Shown here one piece after another: positions 28,986 through 64,000 of a DNA stretch of 64,000 nt (position 1 is the first letter of the stretch; the number at the start of each line of letters is the position of its first letter). The stretch spans positions 1 to 64,000 of the forward strand of contig NZ_JAQZAL010000011.1 in the NCBI RefSeq assembly GCF_028737205.1, written 5' to 3'. The position numbers and the translations under genes were made by a program. Below the pieces are notes generated by a model. It did not search any database and was not told the origin of the DNA. It saw nothing but the letters and a program-made list of their open reading frames with translations. Source of the DNA: Actinomycetospora lutea. GTDB taxonomy: Bacteria > Actinomycetota > Actinomycetes > Mycobacteriales > Pseudonocardiaceae.

Positions 28986-29507
28986 TCAGCCCGCCGGCGC
29001 CTCGAGGGCCTCCGCGGCGGCGGGGTCGAGGCCGTCCTGGAGGCGCCGCAGCAGCGACTCGAACTGCTCGGCGTCCGCCCCGAGCAGGTCGCGGAACTGC
29101 CCGCGCACGTCGGCGGTGACCTCGTCCCACTCGGCCAGCGCCCGGCGCCCGCGCGCGGACACGACGATGAGCACGCGGCGCCGGTCCTCCAGGTCGCGGC
29201 GGCGCAGCACGAGGTTCGCCGACACCATGCGGTCGACGAGCTTGCTGAGCTTGGGCGCCAGGAGCAGCACGTGGTCGGCGACGACGTTCATCGGACAACC
29301 GCCACGCTCGGCGAGCAGACGTAGGATCCGCCACTGGTCCAGACTGGAACCGCAGCCCCGCAGCGCCTCCTCCAGGCGCGCGGTGAGGGTGCGCTCGACG
29401 AGCGACAGGAGCCGGAGCGACTCCTCCCCGTCCCCGGTGGACCCTCCGGCAGTGGCTGGCACGGCGCCGATGGTAGCCAGGTCGCCGGTCCCGGCGGGCA
29501 CGAGCAC
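28986..29507 (-). CDS. MarR family transcriptional regulator
   Basis: A winged-helix regulator of about 173 residues. The MarR core is LRLLSLVERTLTARLEEALR, then SLDQWRILRLLAERGG and the recognition region PMNVVADHVLLLAPKLSKLVD with wing DLEDRRRVLIVVSARGR. GTG 29507 is chosen because GGAGG stands ten bases upstream on the minus strand; GTG 29462 is closer to the conserved start. It is divergent from the amide-sensor gene and probably controls the formamidase cluster. Confidence 0.85.
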   Translation of the reverse strand: MLVPAGTGDLATIGAVPATAGGSTGDGEESLRLLSLVERTLTARLEEALRGCGSSLDQWRILRLLAERGGCPMNVVADHVLLLAPKLSKLVDRMVSANLVLRRRDLEDRRRVLIVVSARGRRALAEWDEVTADVRGQFRDLLGADAEQFESLLRRLQDGLDPAAAEALEAPAG

Positions 29508-29599
29508 GGCCAGGTTGCCTCCACAAGCCCTACCGGACGCGAGCCAACTCGTACGATCGGAGTAGCTCCGCACCGGGGCGTGCTCGCTAGCGTCGAGCA

Positions 29600-30697
29600 A
29601 TGGCCGAGTCGCTGGTTCCCCGCCCGGGAACGACGCGCACCCCCGGCGGACGCGACGTCCTGGACATGGCCCTCGTCGTCCCGCTGCAGGGGCCGGCCGG
29701 CATCTTCGGCCCCTCCTGCGAGAGCTGCGCGACGCTCGCGATGCAGGAGATCAACGCCGACGGCGGGGTGCTCGGGCGCGAGCTGAACCTGGTGCCGGTC
29801 GACGGCGGCCGCAGCCCCGCCGAGGTGGCCATCGAGGTGGACGCGCTGGTCAGCGCCGGTGCGGTGCAGGCCGTCACCGGGTGGCACATCTCCGCGGTCC
29901 GCGAGGCGGTCGCGCCGCGCATCCGCGGGCGCGTCCCCTACGCGTACACGGCGCTCTACGAGGGCGGCGAGCACCGGCCCGGCGTGTTCCTGACCGGCGA
30001 GACGCCCGACCTCCAGCTCGGCCCGACCCTCGACTGGTTCGCGCGCACCGCGGGCGTGCGGCGCTGGACGATCGTCGGCGACGACTACGTCTGGCCGCGC
30101 CGGTCGGCCGCCACCGCGGCGCGCTACCTGCGGCGCATGGGCGGGACGGTCTGCGACGAGATGTTCGTGCCGCTGGGGACGTCGGACTTCTCCTCGGTCC
30201 TGCGCCGCGTCGAGGCCAGCGGCTGCGAGGCCGTGCTGATGCTGCTCATCGGCGACGACGCCGTCGCGTTCAACCGCGCCTTCGCCGCGTCCGGGCTCGA
30301 CCGCGACATCCTGCGCTTCAGCTCGCTGATCGAGGAGAACGTCCTGCTCGCCTCCGGGTCGGAGAGCACGCGCGGTCTGATGACGTCGGCGGGCTACTTC
30401 GAGGACCTCGCGACGAGCTCCGGGCTCGAGTTCGCGGCCACCTACTTCCGCGAGTTCGGCGACGAGGCGCCGGTGCTCAACAGCCTCGGCGAGTCCTGCT
30501 ACGAGGGCGTCCGGCTGCTCACCGAGCTGATGCGCCGCGCCGGCTCCATGGACGTGCCGGCGATGATGTCGGTGGCCGACGGGCTGGCGTACGAGAGCCC
30601 ACGGGGCACCGTCGAGCTGCGCGACCGCCATCTGCACCAGCAGGTCTTCCTGGCCGTCGCGGACGGGCTGACCTGGGACGTCGTCCAGCAGCTGTGA
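29600..30697 (+). CDS. AmiC/UrtA-like amide-binding protein without signal peptide
   Basis: A 365-residue type I periplasmic-binding-protein fold (Leu/Ile/Val- and amide-binding group). Blocks include VVPLQGPAGIFGPSCESCATL, EINADGGVLGREL, VGDDYVWPRRSAATAARYL, PLGTSDFSSVLRRVEASG and GYFEDL. The N-terminus MAESLVPRPGTTRTPGG has no hydrophobic signal, so it should be cytoplasmic like Pseudomonas AmiC, which senses short-chain amides. It lies upstream of FmdB, AmiS and formamidase genes. ATG 29600 has a TAGCGT hexamer only six bases upstream (29588-29593), suggesting leaderless transcription. Regulatory role is inferred. Confidence 0.85.
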   Translation: MAESLVPRPGTTRTPGGRDVLDMALVVPLQGPAGIFGPSCESCATLAMQEINADGGVLGRELNLVPVDGGRSPAEVAIEVDALVSAGAVQAVTGWHISAVREAVAPRIRGRVPYAYTALYEGGEHRPGVFLTGETPDLQLGPTLDWFARTAGVRRWTIVGDDYVWPRRSAATAARYLRRMGGTVCDEMFVPLGTSDFSSVLRRVEASGCEAVLMLLIGDDAVAFNRAFAASGLDRDILRFSSLIEENVLLASGSESTRGLMTSAGYFEDLATSSGLEFAATYFREFGDEAPVLNSLGESCYEGVRLLTELMRRAGSMDVPAMMSVADGLAYESPRGTVELRDRHLHQQVFLAVADGLTWDVVQQL

Positions 30698-30734
30698 CCG
30701 TGAGTCGTCGGCGCGCGACCGCCCGCGACGGCCG

Positions 30735-30764
30735 TTGACACCCTCGTCGCGCGCTGGCTAACTT
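30735..30764 (+). promoter_or_regulatory. Sigma70-type promoter of the fmdB-amiS-fmdA unit
   Basis: TTGACA (30735-30740) is a perfect -35 and TAACTT (30759-30764) a good -10, with 18 bases between. An AT-richer leader follows (near 30770-30800), unusual in this GC-rich window. It lies 68 bases before the FmdB-like gene and would drive the downstream amide genes separately from the sensor gene. Confidence 0.6.
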
Positions 30765-30831
30765 TCCGGGGAAAACATTTCGCGATTGCCATATCTCCTC
30801 GGCGACACCACGGCGAAGGGAATCCACCCGC

Positions 30832-31116
30832 ATGCCCCTGTACGCGTACCGGTGCGACGAGGACGGCCCCGTCGAGGTCATGCGACCCATGGGCGCCGCC
30901 CCGCCGACGGTGTCCTGCCCGGCCTGCGGCGCCGACGCCACCCGCGTGATCACCGCTCCCCGCCTGCGCGGCGACGGCGCCCGCATCGCGGCCATCGACC
31001 GTGCCGAGGCCTCCCGCACCGAGCCGACCGTGGTGTCCGCGCCGCCGCCCCGGGCCGTCGGTCCGCGCCCGGCGCCGCGCCTCGATCCGCGGACCGCGGC
31101 CCTGCCCCGGCCCTAG
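30832..31116 (+). CDS. fmdB: FmdB-type zinc-ribbon protein
   Basis: A 94-residue protein of the FmdB/CxxC zinc-ribbon family, starting MPLYAYRCDEDGPVEVM with the second cysteine pair in CPACGADATRVIT. The remaining 45 residues are proline/arginine-rich and probably disordered. FmdB-type proteins are found beside amidase/formamidase genes and are proposed to regulate or assist them; the mechanism is not established. ATG 30832 is preceded by AAGGGAAT. It sits between the amide sensor and AmiS genes. Confidence 0.88.
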   Translation: MPLYAYRCDEDGPVEVMRPMGAAPPTVSCPACGADATRVITAPRLRGDGARIAAIDRAEASRTEPTVVSAPPPRAVGPRPAPRLDPRTAALPRP

Positions 31117-31199
31117 ACCGACTCCCTCTCCCCCGCCCGCACGGTCGCCGACGACCGCGCGGGTGCTCCGACCTGCCCTCTTCCAGGAAGGGAACTGCC

Positions 31200-31235
31200 A
31201 TGCCGCATCTCCGAGGGGCGCCGCCCCGTGGCTAG
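31200..31235 (+). CDS. Eleven-codon leader ORF overlapping amiS start
   Basis: ATG 31200 has the best ribosome site of the area (GGAAGGGAACTGCC) and opens an 11-codon frame (MPHLRGAPPRG) that ends at TAG 31233-31235. The stop overlaps the amiS start region: the GTG at 31228 lies inside the leader's last codons. amiS has no good Shine-Dalgarno of its own, so translation of the leader could couple or attenuate amiS. Whether the peptide is made is unknown. Confidence 0.4.
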   Translation: MPHLRGAPPRG

Positions 31236-31863
31236 CGTCGGCCTGCTCTTCGTGGGCGCCGTGCTCTTCATCAACGGCGTCATGTTGCTGGGGTGGATCG
31301 ACGCCCGGTCCGCCGCACCGATGAACTTCTTCGTCGGCGGACTGCAGATCATCACGCCGCTGTACCTGATCTTCACCGCGGGCGGCGACGCCGACGTCAT
31401 CCTCGCGGCGTCCGGCCTGTTCCTGTTCTCGTTCACCTATCTCTACGTCGCGGTGAACCTGACCTGGGACCTGGACGGCACCGGGCTCGGCTACTTCTGC
31501 CTGTTCGTGGCCATCACCGCGGTGGTGTTCTCGGCGCTGAACTTCACCCGCTTCGCCGACCCGGCCTTCGGCGTCATCTGGCTGTACTGGGCGTTCCTCT
31601 GGTCCCTGTTCTTCGTGCTCCTGGGACGCAAGCGCGACGGGATCGGGCGCTACACGGGAGCGGTGTGCGCCATCCAGGGCTGGGTCACCGCCTGGATCCC
31701 CGCGTTCCTGCTGCTCACCGGCGTCTACACGGAGATCGGCGTCCCGCTCGCGATCGGGCTCGCGATCTTCGGCGTGGTCGTCTTCGCGGCCCTGATCCCG
31801 TGGGCGCGCCGCTCGCGGGCCCCCGCGACGCCCGCCCCCGCCGGCGAGCACGCCGTCGCCTGA
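31228..31863 (+). CDS. amiS: AmiS/UreI family amide channel
   Basis: A 211-residue inner-membrane protein with six or seven helices and the family start GLLFVGAVLFINGVMLLGWI. Further blocks are FFVGGLQIITPLYLIFTAGG, FSFTYLYVAVNL, ALNFTRFADPAFGVIWLYW and AIQGWVTAWIPAFLLLTG. AmiS/UreI proteins form hexameric channels for short amides or urea. Its position directly before formamidase means that it should admit formamide-like substrates. GTG start at 31228 without its own ribosome site; see the leader ORF. Confidence 0.93.
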   Translation: MASVGLLFVGAVLFINGVMLLGWIDARSAAPMNFFVGGLQIITPLYLIFTAGGDADVILAASGLFLFSFTYLYVAVNLTWDLDGTGLGYFCLFVAITAVVFSALNFTRFADPAFGVIWLYWAFLWSLFFVLLGRKRDGIGRYTGAVCAIQGWVTAWIPAFLLLTGVYTEIGVPLAIGLAIFGVVVFAALIPWARRSRAPATPAPAGEHAVA

Positions 31864-31895
31864 CCCGTCCCGAACCCCTCACGAGGAGAGAAACG

Positions 31896-33149
31896 ATGCC
31901 GAAGAAGATCTTCCCGCTCGACAGCAACAAGAAGTTCACCGACCAGGAGATCGTCGGCCACAACCGCTGGCACCCCGACGTCCCCGCCCAGGTGCACGTC
32001 AAGCCCGGCGACGTGTTCCGCGTCGACTGCCGGGAGTGGTTCGACGGCGCGATCCACAACGACGACTCCGCCGACGACATCCTCAACGCGCCGCTCAACA
32101 GCGTCCACGTGCTCTCCGGCCCGATCGCCGTCGAGGGCGCCCAGCCCGGCGACCTGCTCATCGTCGACATCCTCGACGTCGGCCCGATCCCGCAGGAGGA
32201 CTCCGGGCCGCTGGCCGGACAGGGCTGGGGCTACACCGGCGTCTTCGCGAAGCGCAACGGCGGCGGCTTCCTCACCGACCAGTTCCCCGACGCCTACAAG
32301 GTGATCTGGGACTTCCGCGGCGGGCAGGCCACGTCGCGCCACATCCCCGGGGTCTCCTTCACCGGCATCGTGCACCCCGGCCTCATGGGCACCGCGCCGT
32401 CGCACGACCTGCTGCGCAAGTGGAACGCCCGCGAGCAGGCGCTGATCGACACCAACCCGACGGCCGTGCCGCCGCTCGCCCTGCCGCCCCAGCCCGACTC
32501 GGCGATCCTGGGCTCGCTGTCCGGCGACGACTTCGAGCGCGCCCGCAACGAGGCCGCCCGCACCGCGCCGCCGCGCGAGAACGGCGGCAACCAGGACATC
32601 AAGAACTTCACCAAGGGCAGCCGCGTCTTCTACCCGGTGTTCGTCGACGGCGCGAACCTCTCCATGGGCGACCTGCACTTCTCCCAGGGCGACGGCGAGA
32701 TCACGTTCTGCGGCGCCATCGAGATGGGCGGGTTCATGGACCTGCACGTCGATCTGATCAAGGGCGGCATGCAGACCTACGGCGTGTCCGAGAACGCGAT
32801 CTTCATCCCGGGCAACACCGACCCGCAGTACAGCGAGTGGATCGCCTTCTCGGGGACGTCGGTGACCCTCGACGGCGAGCAGCGCTACCTCGACTCCCAC
32901 CTGTCCTACCAGCGGGCCTGCCTGCACGCGATCGACTACCTGACGACGTTCGGCTGGTCCGACATCCAGGCCTACATGATCCTGGGCGCCGCCCCGATCG
33001 AGGGCCGCCTCTCCGGTGTCGTCGACATCCCGAACTCGTGCTCGACGGTCTACCTCCCGACCGGGATCTTCGACATCGACGTCAAGCCCGGGAAGAACGG
33101 GCCGGCGCGGATCGACCCCGGGATGGGGGTCCCGAAGGCCGACGCCTGA
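31896..33149 (+). CDS. fmdA: Formamidase
   Basis: A 417-residue acetamidase/formamidase family enzyme (FmdA), hydrolysing formamide to formate and ammonia in the cytoplasm. Length and blocks match the family: FPLDSNKKFTDQEIVGHNRW near the N-terminus, DDILNAPLNSVHVLSGPI, GWGYTGVFAKRNGGGFLTD, MGDLHFSQGDGEITFCGAIE and PTGIFDIDVKPG. ATG 31896 follows GAGGAGAGAAACG. Last gene of the amide cluster; a strong hairpin follows 15 bases after the stop. Confidence 0.95.
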   Translation: MPKKIFPLDSNKKFTDQEIVGHNRWHPDVPAQVHVKPGDVFRVDCREWFDGAIHNDDSADDILNAPLNSVHVLSGPIAVEGAQPGDLLIVDILDVGPIPQEDSGPLAGQGWGYTGVFAKRNGGGFLTDQFPDAYKVIWDFRGGQATSRHIPGVSFTGIVHPGLMGTAPSHDLLRKWNAREQALIDTNPTAVPPLALPPQPDSAILGSLSGDDFERARNEAARTAPPRENGGNQDIKNFTKGSRVFYPVFVDGANLSMGDLHFSQGDGEITFCGAIEMGGFMDLHVDLIKGGMQTYGVSENAIFIPGNTDPQYSEWIAFSGTSVTLDGEQRYLDSHLSYQRACLHAIDYLTTFGWSDIQAYMILGAAPIEGRLSGVVDIPNSCSTVYLPTGIFDIDVKPGKNGPARIDPGMGVPKADA

Positions 33150-34756: not shown

Positions 34757-35185
34757 TCAGCGCACCGCCGGGTCGATCGCGACCGGCTCGCGGTGCGCCT
34801 CGTGGTGGTTGGCGTTCCGCGGCGTGGCGAGGACGGCGCGCGTGCGTTCGTCGAGGTCGGCCTCGGACAGCAGCCCGTTGCCGGCGAGGACCGTCTCCAG
34901 CGCGGTCAACCAGTGCTCGTAGTAGCTCCACGGCGCGGTCGCCTCGTCGGCACCGTCGGCCTCCCACTGCCGGATGGACGCGATGAGCGAGAGCTGGAAC
35001 TCCGACCACTCGTACTGGCCCGCGTGATACGCCGCGACCGCGAGGGCGAAGGCGCGCAACTCCCACGGCTCGCGGAACGAGGCCTGACCGTCGCCGCCCG
35101 GTGTGCCCGCGATCAGCGACTCGACGCGCCGGCGGGCCTCGCCCAGCTCGGTCTCGTCCCGGACGGGCGAGGCGGGCGAGCTCAC
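34757..35185 (-). CDS. Nitrile hydratase accessory protein
   Basis: A 142-residue protein matching the accessory/activator family of nitrile hydratases (homologous to the N-terminal part of the beta subunit). Blocks are FREPWELRAFALAVAAYHAG, WSEFQLSLIASIRQWE, SYYEHWLTALETVLAGNGLL and a His-rich tail ANHHEAHREPVAIDPA. These proteins help load cobalt into the alpha subunit. The GTG start overlaps the stop of a truncated alpha-subunit gene. With the rest of the locus deleted it is probably an orphan without a promoter of its own. Confidence 0.82.
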   Translation of the reverse strand: MSSPASPVRDETELGEARRRVESLIAGTPGGDGQASFREPWELRAFALAVAAYHAGQYEWSEFQLSLIASIRQWEADGADEATAPWSYYEHWLTALETVLAGNGLLSEADLDERTRAVLATPRNANHHEAHREPVAIDPAVR

Positions 35186-35409
35186 GCGGGCGCCTTCGTC
35201 GCCCCGACCCCGATCATCGAGTCGCGGGTCACCAGCGCGGCGAGCTCGTCCTCGGACAGGCGGTCGCTGCCGGCGGGGCGCTGCGGGAGCACCCAGTAGC
35301 GCAGCTCCGAGCTGGAGTCCCACACGCGGATCTCCACCGACTCGGGCACGTCGTAGCCGAACTCCTCGCGCAGCACCTTCCGCGGCGCCCGCACGAGGCT
35401 CGCCCGGTA
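35182..35409 (-). pseudogene. Nitrile hydratase alpha subunit, C-terminal remnant
   Basis: Only the last 75 or so residues remain: YRASLVRAPRKVLREEFGYD, VPESVEIRVWDSSSELRYWV, LPQRPAGSDRLSEDELAALV and TRDSMIGVG. These match the C-terminal third of NHase/SCNase alpha subunits. The metal-binding CxxCSC motif and everything before it are missing; upstream of Tyr at 35407-35409 the similarity stops abruptly. The only ATG in frame (35394) would give a 70-residue stub. The stop overlaps the accessory gene (GTGA), the normal operon junction. Confidence 0.8.
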
Positions 35410-35411
35410 CT

Positions 35412-35465
35412 GCTCACGAGCTGGTGCACGACGCGCGGCACTTCCTCGGCTTCCCCTGCCACTGA
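35412..35465 (+). pseudogene. CbtB cobalt transporter subunit, C-terminal remnant
   Basis: The plus strand reads AHELVHDARHFLGFPCH and then TGA. This is the diagnostic His-rich end of CbtB, the small subunit associated with the CbtA cobalt transporter. Nothing of the preceding membrane helix is present. The remnant starts two bases from the point where the alpha-subunit similarity ends on the other strand, so the two 5'-truncated genes are joined back to back. Confidence 0.7.
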
Positions 35466-35485: not shown

Positions 35486-37045
35486 TCACGGCGCGTCGAG
35501 GTCGAGCAGGTACTTCTTGATCTCCGCCTTGAGCACCTTGCCGACCTTGGAGCGCGGCAGGTCCTCCCAGATCTCCACCTGCTTGGGCGTCTTCACGCTG
35601 CCGAGGCGCGCCTTGACGAACGCCGTGAGCTCGGCGGGGTCCAGCGAGGTGCCGGGGCGCAGCGTGAGCACGGCGGTCAGCCGCTCGCCCCACTTGTCGT
35701 CGGGCAGCCCGATCACCGCGCTGTCGGCCACGGCGGGGTGCGCCATGAGCGCCTGCTCGACCTCGGTCGAGTAGACGTTGAACCCGCCGGTGATGACCAT
35801 GTCCTTGGCGCGGTCGACGATGTAGAGGAAGCGGTCCTCGTCGAGGTAGCCGATGTCGCCGGTGTGGTGCCAGCCGTACCGCGACGCCTCCGCCGTGGCC
35901 GCCGCGTCGTCCAGGTAGCCCCGCATCACCAGCGAACCGCGGACGACGATCTCCCCGCGCTCGCCGGGCGGGAGCAGCCGGCCGTCCTCGGACATGATCG
36001 CGACCGTGACCAGCGGCGAGGGCCTCCCGGCCGACGAGAGCCGGGTGCGGGCGATCGACCCGTCGGGCTCGAAGTGGTCGACGGGCGCCATCGTCGAGAT
36101 CATCATCGGCGCCTCGGTCTGCCCGAAGAGCTGGGCCATCACCGGCCCGATTCTCGTCAGCGCCTCCTCGAGCCGGGCCACCGACATCGGCGCGGCCCCG
36201 TACCAGAAGCACTGCAGCGAGGACAGGTCGCGCTCGGGCAGCGAGGGGTGGTCGAGCACCATGTAGATCAGCGTCGGGGGCAGGAACGTGTGGGTGACGC
36301 GGTGGCGCTCGACGTGGTCGAGGAACCCGCCGACGTCGGGCGCGCGCATGATCACGATCTCGCCTCCCCGGCACAGCACCGGGAAGCACAGCACCCCGGC
36401 GGCGTGGGTGAGCGGGGCCAGCGCCAGGTAGGTCGGCGGCGCGCCGCGCTCGGGCCACGGGTAGCTCATCAGCGTCAGCGCGGTCATCGACTCGATGGTC
36501 GTGCCCGTGAGCATCACGCCCTTCGGCCTCCCGGTCGTCCCGCCGGTGCCGACGACCAGGGCGAGGTCGTCGCCGCTGTCGCGGTCGACCGGCTCGGGAC
36601 CCCCGGCCGCCAGGAAGTCCCCGAGACGGCGCGCCCCGGGGACGTCGCCGTCCAGACAGACCAGCGTGCGCAGACGTGGGAGGTCACCGCGGATCGTGTC
36701 CACGAGGGGCGCGAACGAGGCCTGGAAGAAGAGCACCGAGCAGCCGAACAGGTCGAGCAGCTCGCGGTTCTCCGCCGCCTCGTTGCGCGGGTTGACCGGG
36801 CACCACACCGCCCCGGCGCGGCTGATCCCGAAGACGCAGGTGAACGCGGTGGGGTCGTTGGCCGAGAGGATCGCGATCCTGTCGCCGGGGGCGGTGCCGT
36901 CGGCCACCAGGGCCGCGGCGATGCGGCCGCTGAGGTGCTGGACCTCGGCGTAGGTCGCGGTCTCGCCCTCGCAGACCAGGCAGGGGGCGCCGGGGTCGAG
37001 CGACGCCCCCTTGTCCAGGTGGTCGACCAGGCGCATCCCGGTCAC
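35486..37045 (-). CDS. Acyl-CoA synthetase / AMP-binding ligase
   Basis: About 519 residues of the ANL superfamily. The P-loop is GTGGTTGRPKGVM, followed by FGQTEAPMM, YGWHHTGDIGYLDED, DRAKDMVITGGFNVY and the catalytic lysine region PRSKVGKVLKAEIKK. GTG 37045 overlaps the TGA of the upstream SDR gene; ATG 37036 is an alternative three codons in. It forms an operon with that SDR, divergent from a TetR gene, as in fatty-acid or steroid/terpenoid catabolic units. Substrate unknown. Confidence 0.9.
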   Translation of the reverse strand: MTGMRLVDHLDKGASLDPGAPCLVCEGETATYAEVQHLSGRIAAALVADGTAPGDRIAILSANDPTAFTCVFGISRAGAVWCPVNPRNEAAENRELLDLFGCSVLFFQASFAPLVDTIRGDLPRLRTLVCLDGDVPGARRLGDFLAAGGPEPVDRDSGDDLALVVGTGGTTGRPKGVMLTGTTIESMTALTLMSYPWPERGAPPTYLALAPLTHAAGVLCFPVLCRGGEIVIMRAPDVGGFLDHVERHRVTHTFLPPTLIYMVLDHPSLPERDLSSLQCFWYGAAPMSVARLEEALTRIGPVMAQLFGQTEAPMMISTMAPVDHFEPDGSIARTRLSSAGRPSPLVTVAIMSEDGRLLPPGERGEIVVRGSLVMRGYLDDAAATAEASRYGWHHTGDIGYLDEDRFLYIVDRAKDMVITGGFNVYSTEVEQALMAHPAVADSAVIGLPDDKWGERLTAVLTLRPGTSLDPAELTAFVKARLGSVKTPKQVEIWEDLPRSKVGKVLKAEIKKYLLDLDAP

Positions 37046-62063: not shown

Positions 62064-62154
62064 GGCGCGACGCTACCCGGCGGAGCGAGGTGCGCCGTCG
62101 GCAGCGCGGACGGACGACGCGTGCACAGGTGTCGACCCGTGGTAGCTTCCGCGC

Positions 62155-62505
62155 GTGGAGGCGAACGAGAACCTGGCGTTCGACGCGCTCTCCGACCGCG
62201 TCCGTCGCCGGATCCTCGCCGCCCTCGGCGAGGAGGGGGAGCTGAGCGCGAGCGAGATCGCCGCGCGCATCGACTCCGTCGGCCGGACGTCGGTGTCGAG
62301 CCACCTGCGCGTGCTGCGCACCTCCGGGGTGGTCGTCGAGCGGCGCTCCGGGCGCAACCGGTTCTACTCGCTCGATCTCGACGGTACGGTCCGGGACGCC
62401 TTCGTCTACCTCCAGTCGATCCTGCGCGAGGCGACGACCTCGATCGACACCACCGACGCCCCGGAGCGGCACGACGCCGACCGCGGCGACCGTGGAGTCG
62501 GCTGA
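62155..62505 (+). CDS. ArsR family transcriptional regulator
   Basis: A 116-residue ArsR/SmtB winged-helix protein: FDALSDRVRRRILAALGEEG, ELSASEIAARIDS, TSVSSHLRVLRTSGVVVERR and SGRNRFYSLD. No cysteine or His cluster for metal binding is visible, so it is of the metal-independent kind often paired with SRPBCC proteins. GTG 62155 has TAGCTT six bases upstream (62143-62148), leaderless. It is followed after 18 bases by a gene whose N-terminus is SRPBCC-like, the usual partner. Confidence 0.9.
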   Translation: MEANENLAFDALSDRVRRRILAALGEEGELSASEIAARIDSVGRTSVSSHLRVLRTSGVVVERRSGRNRFYSLDLDGTVRDAFVYLQSILREATTSIDTTDAPERHDADRGDRGVG

Positions 62506-62523
62506 CGCACCCCCGGGGCCGCG

Positions 62524-63963
62524 ATGACCAGCACCACCGTTGCCGCGGAGCGCACCGTTTACCTCGACCGCCACGAGGTGTTCGCCCGCTTCGGCAGCTC
62601 CGAGGGCTCGGGGTGGCTGTTCGGCGCGCGGTGCGACCGTGTCGCCGAGGGCGCCGCGGTGAGCATGCGGCTGCCCGCGGCCGACGGCGCCGGCGACGGC
62701 CTGGAGATCCTCGGACGCTTCTCGCGCGTCGTGCCCGGCTCGCTGCTCGTCGTGGAGCACACGCAGCCGTGGCCGGGACGGCTGTGCGTGCGGTTCGGCT
62801 CGGCCGGCGTCGGACGGACGCGGGTGCGGGTCCGGGCCACCGTGCCGCCGGCGGGCGTGCAGTGGCTGCTGCACCGCCGCGGCGTGCCGCTGCCCGAACC
62901 GCCGGACGACGGCTCGGTCCGCGTCGGGGCGATCACCACCATGTCCGGCACCGGCGCGATCTACTCCGGCTCCGCCGAGGCCATGGCCGCGCTGGCGGTC
63001 GACGAGGTCAACGCCGACGGCGGCGTCGCCGGCCGGCGCCTCTCCCTGCTGACCGCCGACGACGGCACCGACGCCGAGCAGGCCGCCTTCGAGGCCCGCC
63101 GGATGGTCCGTCTGGGCTGCCGGGCCCTGTTCGTCAACACCACCTCGGCGAGCTTCGACGCGGTCCGCGCGGCCGTGGAGCGTACCGGCGTGCTGCTCGT
63201 GCACTCCGTCATCAACGAGGGCGGCGGCGGCTCGCCCACCGTCCTGCGCCTCGGCGAACGCCCTCGCGACCAGCTCGAGGCCCTGGTCGGTCCGACGATG
63301 CGCGCGACGGGTGGCCGACGGTGGTTCCTCGTCGGGCAGGACTACGTGTGGTCCCACGGCGCGCACCGCGACGCCCGCCGTGTGATCGACGCCGCGGGCG
63401 GACGGGTGGTCGGCGAGAAGCTGACCCCGCTGGGCACCACCGACTTCGACGCCATCGTCGAGGCGATCCCCCGGGCGGGCGCCGACCTCCTCCTCAGCTC
63501 GCTCGTCGGGGCCGACGAGGTGGCCTTCGAGCGCGCCGGCGTCCGGGCCGGGCTGCGCGACACGACGCGGACGGTGTCGCTCGTGCTCGACGAGGCGACG
63601 CTCGCGCACATGGGCGAGCACGCCGCCGAGGGCCTGCGGACGGCGCTGAGCTACTTCCAGGACGGCCCGGCCGCGGGCAACGCCGAGCTGCTCGCCCGCT
63701 ACACGGACGCGCGCGGCGCCTGGGCGCCGCCCGTCACCGCGCTCTCGGAGACCGTCTACGAGGCCATCCACCAGTACGCCCGCGTGCTGCACCGCGACCC
63801 CGACGCGTCGGCGGCGGCGCACGTCGCGGCGTGGCGCCGGCGACCCTCCCCGCGGCACGACGTCGTCGGGGACCGGGACCTGCTGGCTCCCCCGCTGTAC
63901 ACCGCCGAGGCCTCGCGCGCCTCCCTGGTCATCGACGGCGTCATCGCCCCGCCGTCGGCCTAG
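62524..63963 (+). CDS. Fusion of SRPBCC-like domain with periplasmic-binding-protein fold, cytoplasmic
   Basis: A 479-residue protein of unusual architecture. Residues 1-125 look like an SRPBCC/AHSA1 domain (YLDRHEVFARFGSSEGSGWL ... SLLVVEHTQPWPGR). Residues 131-479 are a type I binding-protein fold: VRVGAITTMSGTGAIYSGSA, EVNADGGVAGRRLSLLTADD, VGQDYVWSHGAHRDARRVID, PLGTTDFDAIVEAIPRAGAD. The second part is paralogous to the AmiC-like protein at 29600-30697. There is no signal peptide, so it is expected in the cytoplasm as a ligand sensor. The gene follows an ArsR regulator; it may relay a ligand signal to it. Confidence 0.8.
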   Translation: MTSTTVAAERTVYLDRHEVFARFGSSEGSGWLFGARCDRVAEGAAVSMRLPAADGAGDGLEILGRFSRVVPGSLLVVEHTQPWPGRLCVRFGSAGVGRTRVRVRATVPPAGVQWLLHRRGVPLPEPPDDGSVRVGAITTMSGTGAIYSGSAEAMAALAVDEVNADGGVAGRRLSLLTADDGTDAEQAAFEARRMVRLGCRALFVNTTSASFDAVRAAVERTGVLLVHSVINEGGGGSPTVLRLGERPRDQLEALVGPTMRATGGRRWFLVGQDYVWSHGAHRDARRVIDAAGGRVVGEKLTPLGTTDFDAIVEAIPRAGADLLLSSLVGADEVAFERAGVRAGLRDTTRTVSLVLDEATLAHMGEHAAEGLRTALSYFQDGPAAGNAELLARYTDARGAWAPPVTALSETVYEAIHQYARVLHRDPDASAAAHVAAWRRRPSPRHDVVGDRDLLAPPLYTAEASRASLVIDGVIAPPSA

Positions 63964-64000
63964 ATCACGCCCGACCTCGGCGGGAAGCAGGGTCACGGCC

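Follow-up and report, generated by a model that had tools for sequence, protein, structure and literature searches.

Nitrile hydratase is the enzyme used for acrylamide production, and the closest described relatives of the gene pair analysed here sit beside its genes. In strain J1, genetic work from 1996 reportedly identified NhlD as a repressor that is antagonised by NhlC together with an amide. The two genes of the J1 cluster that correspond to our pair are nhlD and nhlC. In the L-type NhlC/NhlD arrangement of Rhodococcus, as read from plasmid pNit of R. rhodochrous BAA-870, an ArsR-type gene is followed by a fused SRPBCC/AmiC-like gene and then by the nitrile hydratase cluster, in the order arsR-fusion-nthB-nthA-accessory-Ni/Co transporter-amidase. 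The NhhC/NhhD-type systems of the H-type nitrile hydratase clusters in R. pyridinivorans pRJH2 and Rhodococcus sp. M8 also have an AmiC-like sensor beside nitrile hydratase, but this sensor (361 aa in pRJH2) lacks the SRPBCC part and its nearest regulator is MarR. AmiC of Pseudomonas aeruginosa likewise lacks an SRPBCC part, and its target is AmiR, an RNA-binding antiterminator, rather than ArsR. Separate ArsR and SRPBCC gene pairs place the same two folds side by side, whereas the protein described here joins the SRPBCC part to one more domain, of the amide-binding type.

A passage of PMC11573777 traces amide and urea induction of nitrile hydratase to Komeda et al. 1996, and one in PMC7105576 still calls urea activation of the H-type enzyme unclear. 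In the open-access literature searched, we found no text that brought nitrile hydratase together with SRPBCC, and none that combined it with nhlC, nhlD or nhhD. The preliminary description of this DNA knew of no described system with this layout. That claim did not survive, as the same pair heads nitrile hydratase clusters, including the one on BAA-870 pNit, in the NhlD/NhlC position. The layout is already known. What seems to be unpublished, as far as the open-access texts searched show, is that the sensor begins with an SRPBCC domain, that regulator and enzyme genes share an operator, and that fused and unfused sensors differ in having ArsR or MarR as neighbour.

The window, a 64,000-nucleotide stretch of the Actinomycetospora lutea genome, contains an ArsR-family gene followed, after 18 bases, by a single long frame, with coordinates exactly as first given (Table 1). 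The ArsR product matched HTH_20 (E 5e-11) and HTH_5 (E 2e-6) in Pfam and scored 66.5 bits against the NCBIfam ArsR/SmtB model (cut-off 55), and the family models thereby place it among the ArsR/SmtB winged helix proteins. It was 51% identical to its BAA-870 pNit counterpart, and the fusion was 43% identical to the gene 5' of nthB on the same plasmid. A CxC metal site was found in none of the 26 fusion-linked ArsR homologues, 19 of which, including that of the window, were free of cysteine. A metal-sensing ArsR was ruled out for lack of CxC. The pair shares with NhlC/NhlD both an ArsR gene beside an AmiC-like sensor and a linkage to nitrile hydratase, the latter seen in relatives and in the window only as remnants. 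This likeness was drawn from the BAA-870 sequence, and the remnant state of the enzyme genes sets the window pair apart from NhlC/NhlD.

Table 1. Positions of the regulator pair, its domains, the candidate operator and the nitrile hydratase gene traces.
Feature	Position	Strand	Details
ArsR-family gene, NhlD counterpart	62155..62505	+	116 aa, GTG start, no cysteine
Fusion gene, NhlC counterpart	62524..63963	+	479 aa; SRPBCC-fold N-domain and AmiC/urea-binding-like C-domain
SRPBCC-fold N-domain	62524..62883	+	Residues 1-120; predicted model, Foldseek, VIA
Type I binding-protein C-domain	62914..63831	+	Residues 131-436; PF13458 (Peripla_BP_6) E 1.6e-62
Presumed ArsR operator, weak GTCR-N8-YGAC copy	62117..62140	+	About 26 bases before arsR
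Decayed nthB start	63972..64000, on to C9:64206 past the window	+	Then joined to amidase 3' end
nthA 3' remnant, other cluster type	35194..35412	-	PF02979 positions 115-184, E 5e-28
Nitrile hydratase accessory (activator) gene	34775..35089	-	After the nthA remnant; 48% to BAA-870 accessory protein, 92% to L096

Residues 1-126 of the window protein gave no Pfam or NCBIfam sequence match. Polyketide_cyc2 was matched at E 0.015 by one of the 13 fusion members tested for the N-domain, and an N-domain profile found no solved structure by sequence. With no match to the Pfam clan above its cut-off, membership is assigned by fold only. Modelled alone from nine orthologues (pLDDT 78, pTM 0.71), the N-domain showed a strand and then a helix, followed by several strands in succession and, at the end, a short helix, which is the SRPBCC order; the domain spans ~120 residues in the model, and its last helix only 10. 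Foldseek against the PDB gave a best E of 2.1e-5, and the 50 matches listed were AHSA1/START/Bet v 1/PYL-type or structural-genomics entries, all of which, judging by their titles, we take to have the SRPBCC fold. VIA returned Z up to 9.5 (rmsd 3.2 over 114 residues), a Z near 8 alone not being decisive. The predicted structure thus has the helix-grip fold of START, Bet v 1 and AHSA1, and on this model the N-domain is an SRPBCC fold and its fusion with a binding-protein fold is real. In this, the model, Foldseek and VIA bear out the earlier reading of residues 1-125. The most conserved positions of the domain were W31, G43, V46, G64, P82, W83, G85 and W114.

The C-domain matched 8tg1 at E 2e-32 and AmiC (1pea) at E 7e-20, and the best five Foldseek matches listed were to 8tg1 and AmiC. 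It shares both fold and sequence kinship with AmiC. By hand-counted alignment, AmiC S85 and Y150 correspond to S208 and Y274 of the fusion, and both positions were invariant in 13 of 13 fusions. In AmiC, S85 and Y150 are residues of the ligand pocket. The domain is thus a type I binding fold that keeps two AmiC-like pocket positions. Because the adjoining partner is ArsR rather than an AmiR (ANTAR antiterminator) protein, we did not file the pair as AmiC/AmiR. Inspected by eye, the start of the protein had nothing resembling a signal peptide, as the preliminary description had said, and the frame opens straight into the first SRPBCC strand. The domain matches and the N-domain model agree with a single protein, probably cytoplasmic, that carries both folds and is encoded beside ArsR. 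A model of the full-length fusion was less sure (pLDDT 70, pTM 0.58, with residues 355-386 and 441-479 below 50) than that of the N-domain, so the relative placing of the two domains in it is tentative.

The fusion recurs well beyond this genome. It was stop-free in eight relatives taken from genome contigs (48-79% identity), and the N-domain occurred in 13 of 18 Actinomycetospora genomes, our own included, each time within a frame that stays open for 485 codons or more. Two genes joined by a frame error, the alternative raised at the outset, can be ruled out, because the fusion recurs in relatives without stops. One-frame fusions were found in Actinomycetospora, Pseudonocardia and Geodermatophilus, in other genomes from the order, and on plasmids from Rhodococcus and Paenarthrobacter. 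Across the order, 11 of 296 genomes had the N-domain (two as weak standalone matches, one as a broken copy in G231), as did three of 396 genomes of the phylum (our own, one further fusion and one weak match). A free-standing N-domain was also considered and ruled out: the two weak standalone matches in the genomes searched (E 1.3e-6 and 5.4e-6) were ordinary Polyketide_cyc2 proteins. Against A. termitidis, dN/dS was 0.32 for the N-domain and 0.20 for the C-domain (NG86, crude at this GC). The G231 copy (locus L062) is broken by a frame change or stop and has no ArsR; all that is left in its vicinity is part of an accessory-like gene, so the system has decayed there too.

A search for the same fusion beside ArsR genes elsewhere, proposed at the start, found ArsR adjoining the fusion, with both genes on one strand, in 26 of 27 loci left after removing redundancy; in one of the 26 (L014) it lies downstream of the fusion. 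Near the fusion we also found nthA (20/27), nthB (22/27, counting the window remnant and one contig edge) and amidase (24/27, counting the window remnant). ArsR, nthA, nthB and amidase were each found in none of the 19 unfused control loci, which had been hand-picked near the top of the unfused matches, short contigs excluded. The 27 loci were counted without those from the same contigs (L009-L012, L015 and L016, equal to L103, L097, L093, L101, L095 and L099), the shorter cuts L021-L028 of L055-L062, L017, which matches the C-domain only, and H1-H4, taken as near relatives of H5. PMC6941271 describes, on the BAA-870 plasmid, a cluster of a low-molecular-weight cobalt nitrile hydratase, two amidases and regulatory elements. 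Two loci, L104 and L051, had the fusion, ArsR and strong operator sites, but the surrounding 7-9 kb or so contained neither nitrile hydratase nor amidase, so other targets of such pairs exist. In L051, a transporter annotated as an iron ABC permease comes after the fusion.

A palindrome, GTCR-N8-YGAC, was present upstream of arsR and of amidase/nthB in most loci. At the enzyme promoters its right half is often TTGAC, as in a -35 box. Upstream of arsR, the strict pattern occurred in 11 of 25 loci (resampled sequence: mean 0.74, maximum 5 in 1000), and in the stretch after the fusion in 12 of 25 (1.19, maximum 6); L014 and L062 were set aside for these counts, and L062 alone for the 26 loci of the matrix. 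Because the palindrome was first spotted by eye across all loci, the genus included, the hold-out extended to the matrix but did not cover the motif. This matrix was built from 14 non-genus sites and run over 13 genus loci, each about 11-20 kb long. In 12 of these (the window being the exception) a site upstream of amidase/nthB outscored the best of 19 controls, and in eight a site upstream of arsR did so; an arsR-upstream site ranked first to third in every one of the 13. The reverse test was weak: with only eight training sites and a best control of 19.9, it placed two and four of 13 above the best control. No site scoring at least 15 was found in 378 kb of control loci, and L060 and L061 had no palindrome site upstream of arsR. 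In the window, the site before arsR was the best in 20 kb, but its score of 9.0 was exceeded by the highest-scoring of the 19 controls (13.9). Since this score is within the control range, the case for the site comes from its position and from the same site in relatives.

The regulator beside the sensor appears to depend on the front domain. In a small, hand-picked sample, SRPBCC-fused sensors adjoined ArsR and unfused ones MarR: all eight unfused AmiC-like genes considered (seven plasmid genes chosen by hand from 40 matches listed, and the window copy) lay beside MarR. Two H-type nitrile hydratase clusters also have an ArsR gene beyond the accessory gene, which we take to be the cobalt-linked CblA. 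CblA is named as a downstream repressor in a passage of PMC11573777. The partner split suggests that the SRPBCC domain is the part that couples the sensor to ArsR, by docking. More tentatively, it could be a transferable ArsR-docking module: by acquiring it, an amide sensor would have switched its repressor partner from the MarR to the ArsR type. Were this so, separate ArsR and SRPBCC pairs might use the SRPBCC protein as an anti-repressor or co-factor, beyond the roles of enzyme or carrier.

The enzyme genes that this pair would be expected to serve are reduced to traces in our genome, a point absent from the preliminary description. The nthB remnant was 89% identical in DNA to nthB of A. termitidis, and its residues 16-84 were 70% identical to BAA-870; read by eye, it lacked a start codon where one would correspond, and its frame shifts. 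The operator-bearing stretch that separates fusion and nthB in G692 (L102) is absent. With the adjacent enzyme genes reduced to remnants, the pair is an orphan here and can only regulate itself or other targets. We dropped the idea that one nitrile hydratase operon had been divided by an inversion, with parts at 35 kb and 64 kb, since the remnants at the two places most resemble different cluster types, and a weak nthA-like match at 36428-36553 was put down to chance inside an AMP-ligase-like frame. Nitrile hydratase alpha family matches occurred at least once in 18 of 18 genus genomes, and our own has three further complete nthA genes (C62:61194, C46:31729 and C25:5400), none of them beside a fusion relative or a good operator site. 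Across the genome, the operator pattern occurred at 12 sites, hardly above the nine of a reversed control, and the most operator-like match fronts what looks by eye like rRNA. Targets elsewhere in the genome were dropped as a proposal, as the pattern stayed near the reversed control and no good score lay near the other nitrile hydratases.

What is directly seen are the domains, their conservation, the linkage, the placement of the palindrome in relatives and the remnants. From these, we consider it quite likely that the genes form an NhlD/NhlC-type amide-response pair, orphaned here, in which ArsR represses and the amide-loaded fusion relieves this through its SRPBCC domain. We infer the ligand, the repression, its relief and the SRPBCC docking as follows. 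ArsR (NhlD) would sit at the palindrome in its own promoter and in the amidase/nitrile hydratase promoter, repressing both. The AmiC-like cleft of the cytoplasmic fusion (NhlC) would take up an amide, which is what nitrile hydratase produces, and the loaded sensor would then pull ArsR off the DNA, most likely through SRPBCC contact. In this genome, the adjacent enzyme operon and its promoter and operator have decayed to remnants, which leaves the pair orphaned. The preliminary description had likewise proposed a sensor that may control ArsR, with AmiC as the precedent, and the results support a protein that works like AmiC and probably acts on ArsR. Counting against this reading, PMC6941271 reports the BAA-870 nitrile hydratase as constitutive although the pair is present. 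The sensor domain assignment, the candidate operator and the partner split together make the L-type circuit directly testable in vitro, and they hint at what SRPBCC proteins might do when their genes adjoin arsR.

A different role for the front domain, in keeping with the preliminary description, would make the protein a two-input sensor, whose SRPBCC part binds a second ligand (a bulky nitrile, an aromatic amide or an acyl compound) so that both inputs set ArsR. SRPBCC folds often bind hydrophobic ligands, and both domains are conserved and under constraint. However, the domain is short with a last helix of 10 residues, its conserved positions are not known to line a cavity, and docking alone accounts for the ArsR/MarR split, which leaves this version unlikely in our judgement. 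Several records instead annotate the protein as an ABC-transporter substrate-binding protein, a name in keeping with its Peripla_BP_6 match. Against this stand the start with nothing signal-like by eye, the SRPBCC domain in front and the near-constant same-strand ArsR (26/27), and we regard a transport role as highly improbable.

Within the amide-response reading, it is possible, if somewhat doubtful, that the pair is a relic on its way out of this genome after the loss of its operon. The nthB/amidase remnants adjoin it, the own-genome operator search barely exceeded its control (12 vs. nine), and G231 already has a broken fusion without ArsR. Moreover, when the window and A. termitidis were each compared with the same third sequence, the window gave the slightly larger C-domain dN/dS in four of four cases. 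Still, both frames are open, and dN tells against decay: that of the C-domain was higher in one, equal in one and lower in two of the four comparisons, and that of the N-domain was lower in all four. The three complete nthA genes also remain in the genome, though no site stands out beside them.

The window contains a second amide-response cluster at 28986-33149, consisting of MarR, an unfused AmiC-like sensor, an AmiS/UreI transporter and an FmdA/AmdA acetamidase/formamidase. Its MarR gene (28986-29600) directly meets the sensor gene (29600-30697), whose product was 47% identical to the pRJH2 sensor of H-type nitrile hydratase. Beyond the fusion, on the minus strand of L018 (6313-7259, C9 about 64312-65258), frames resembling a broken NADH dehydrogenase-type gene were visible by eye.
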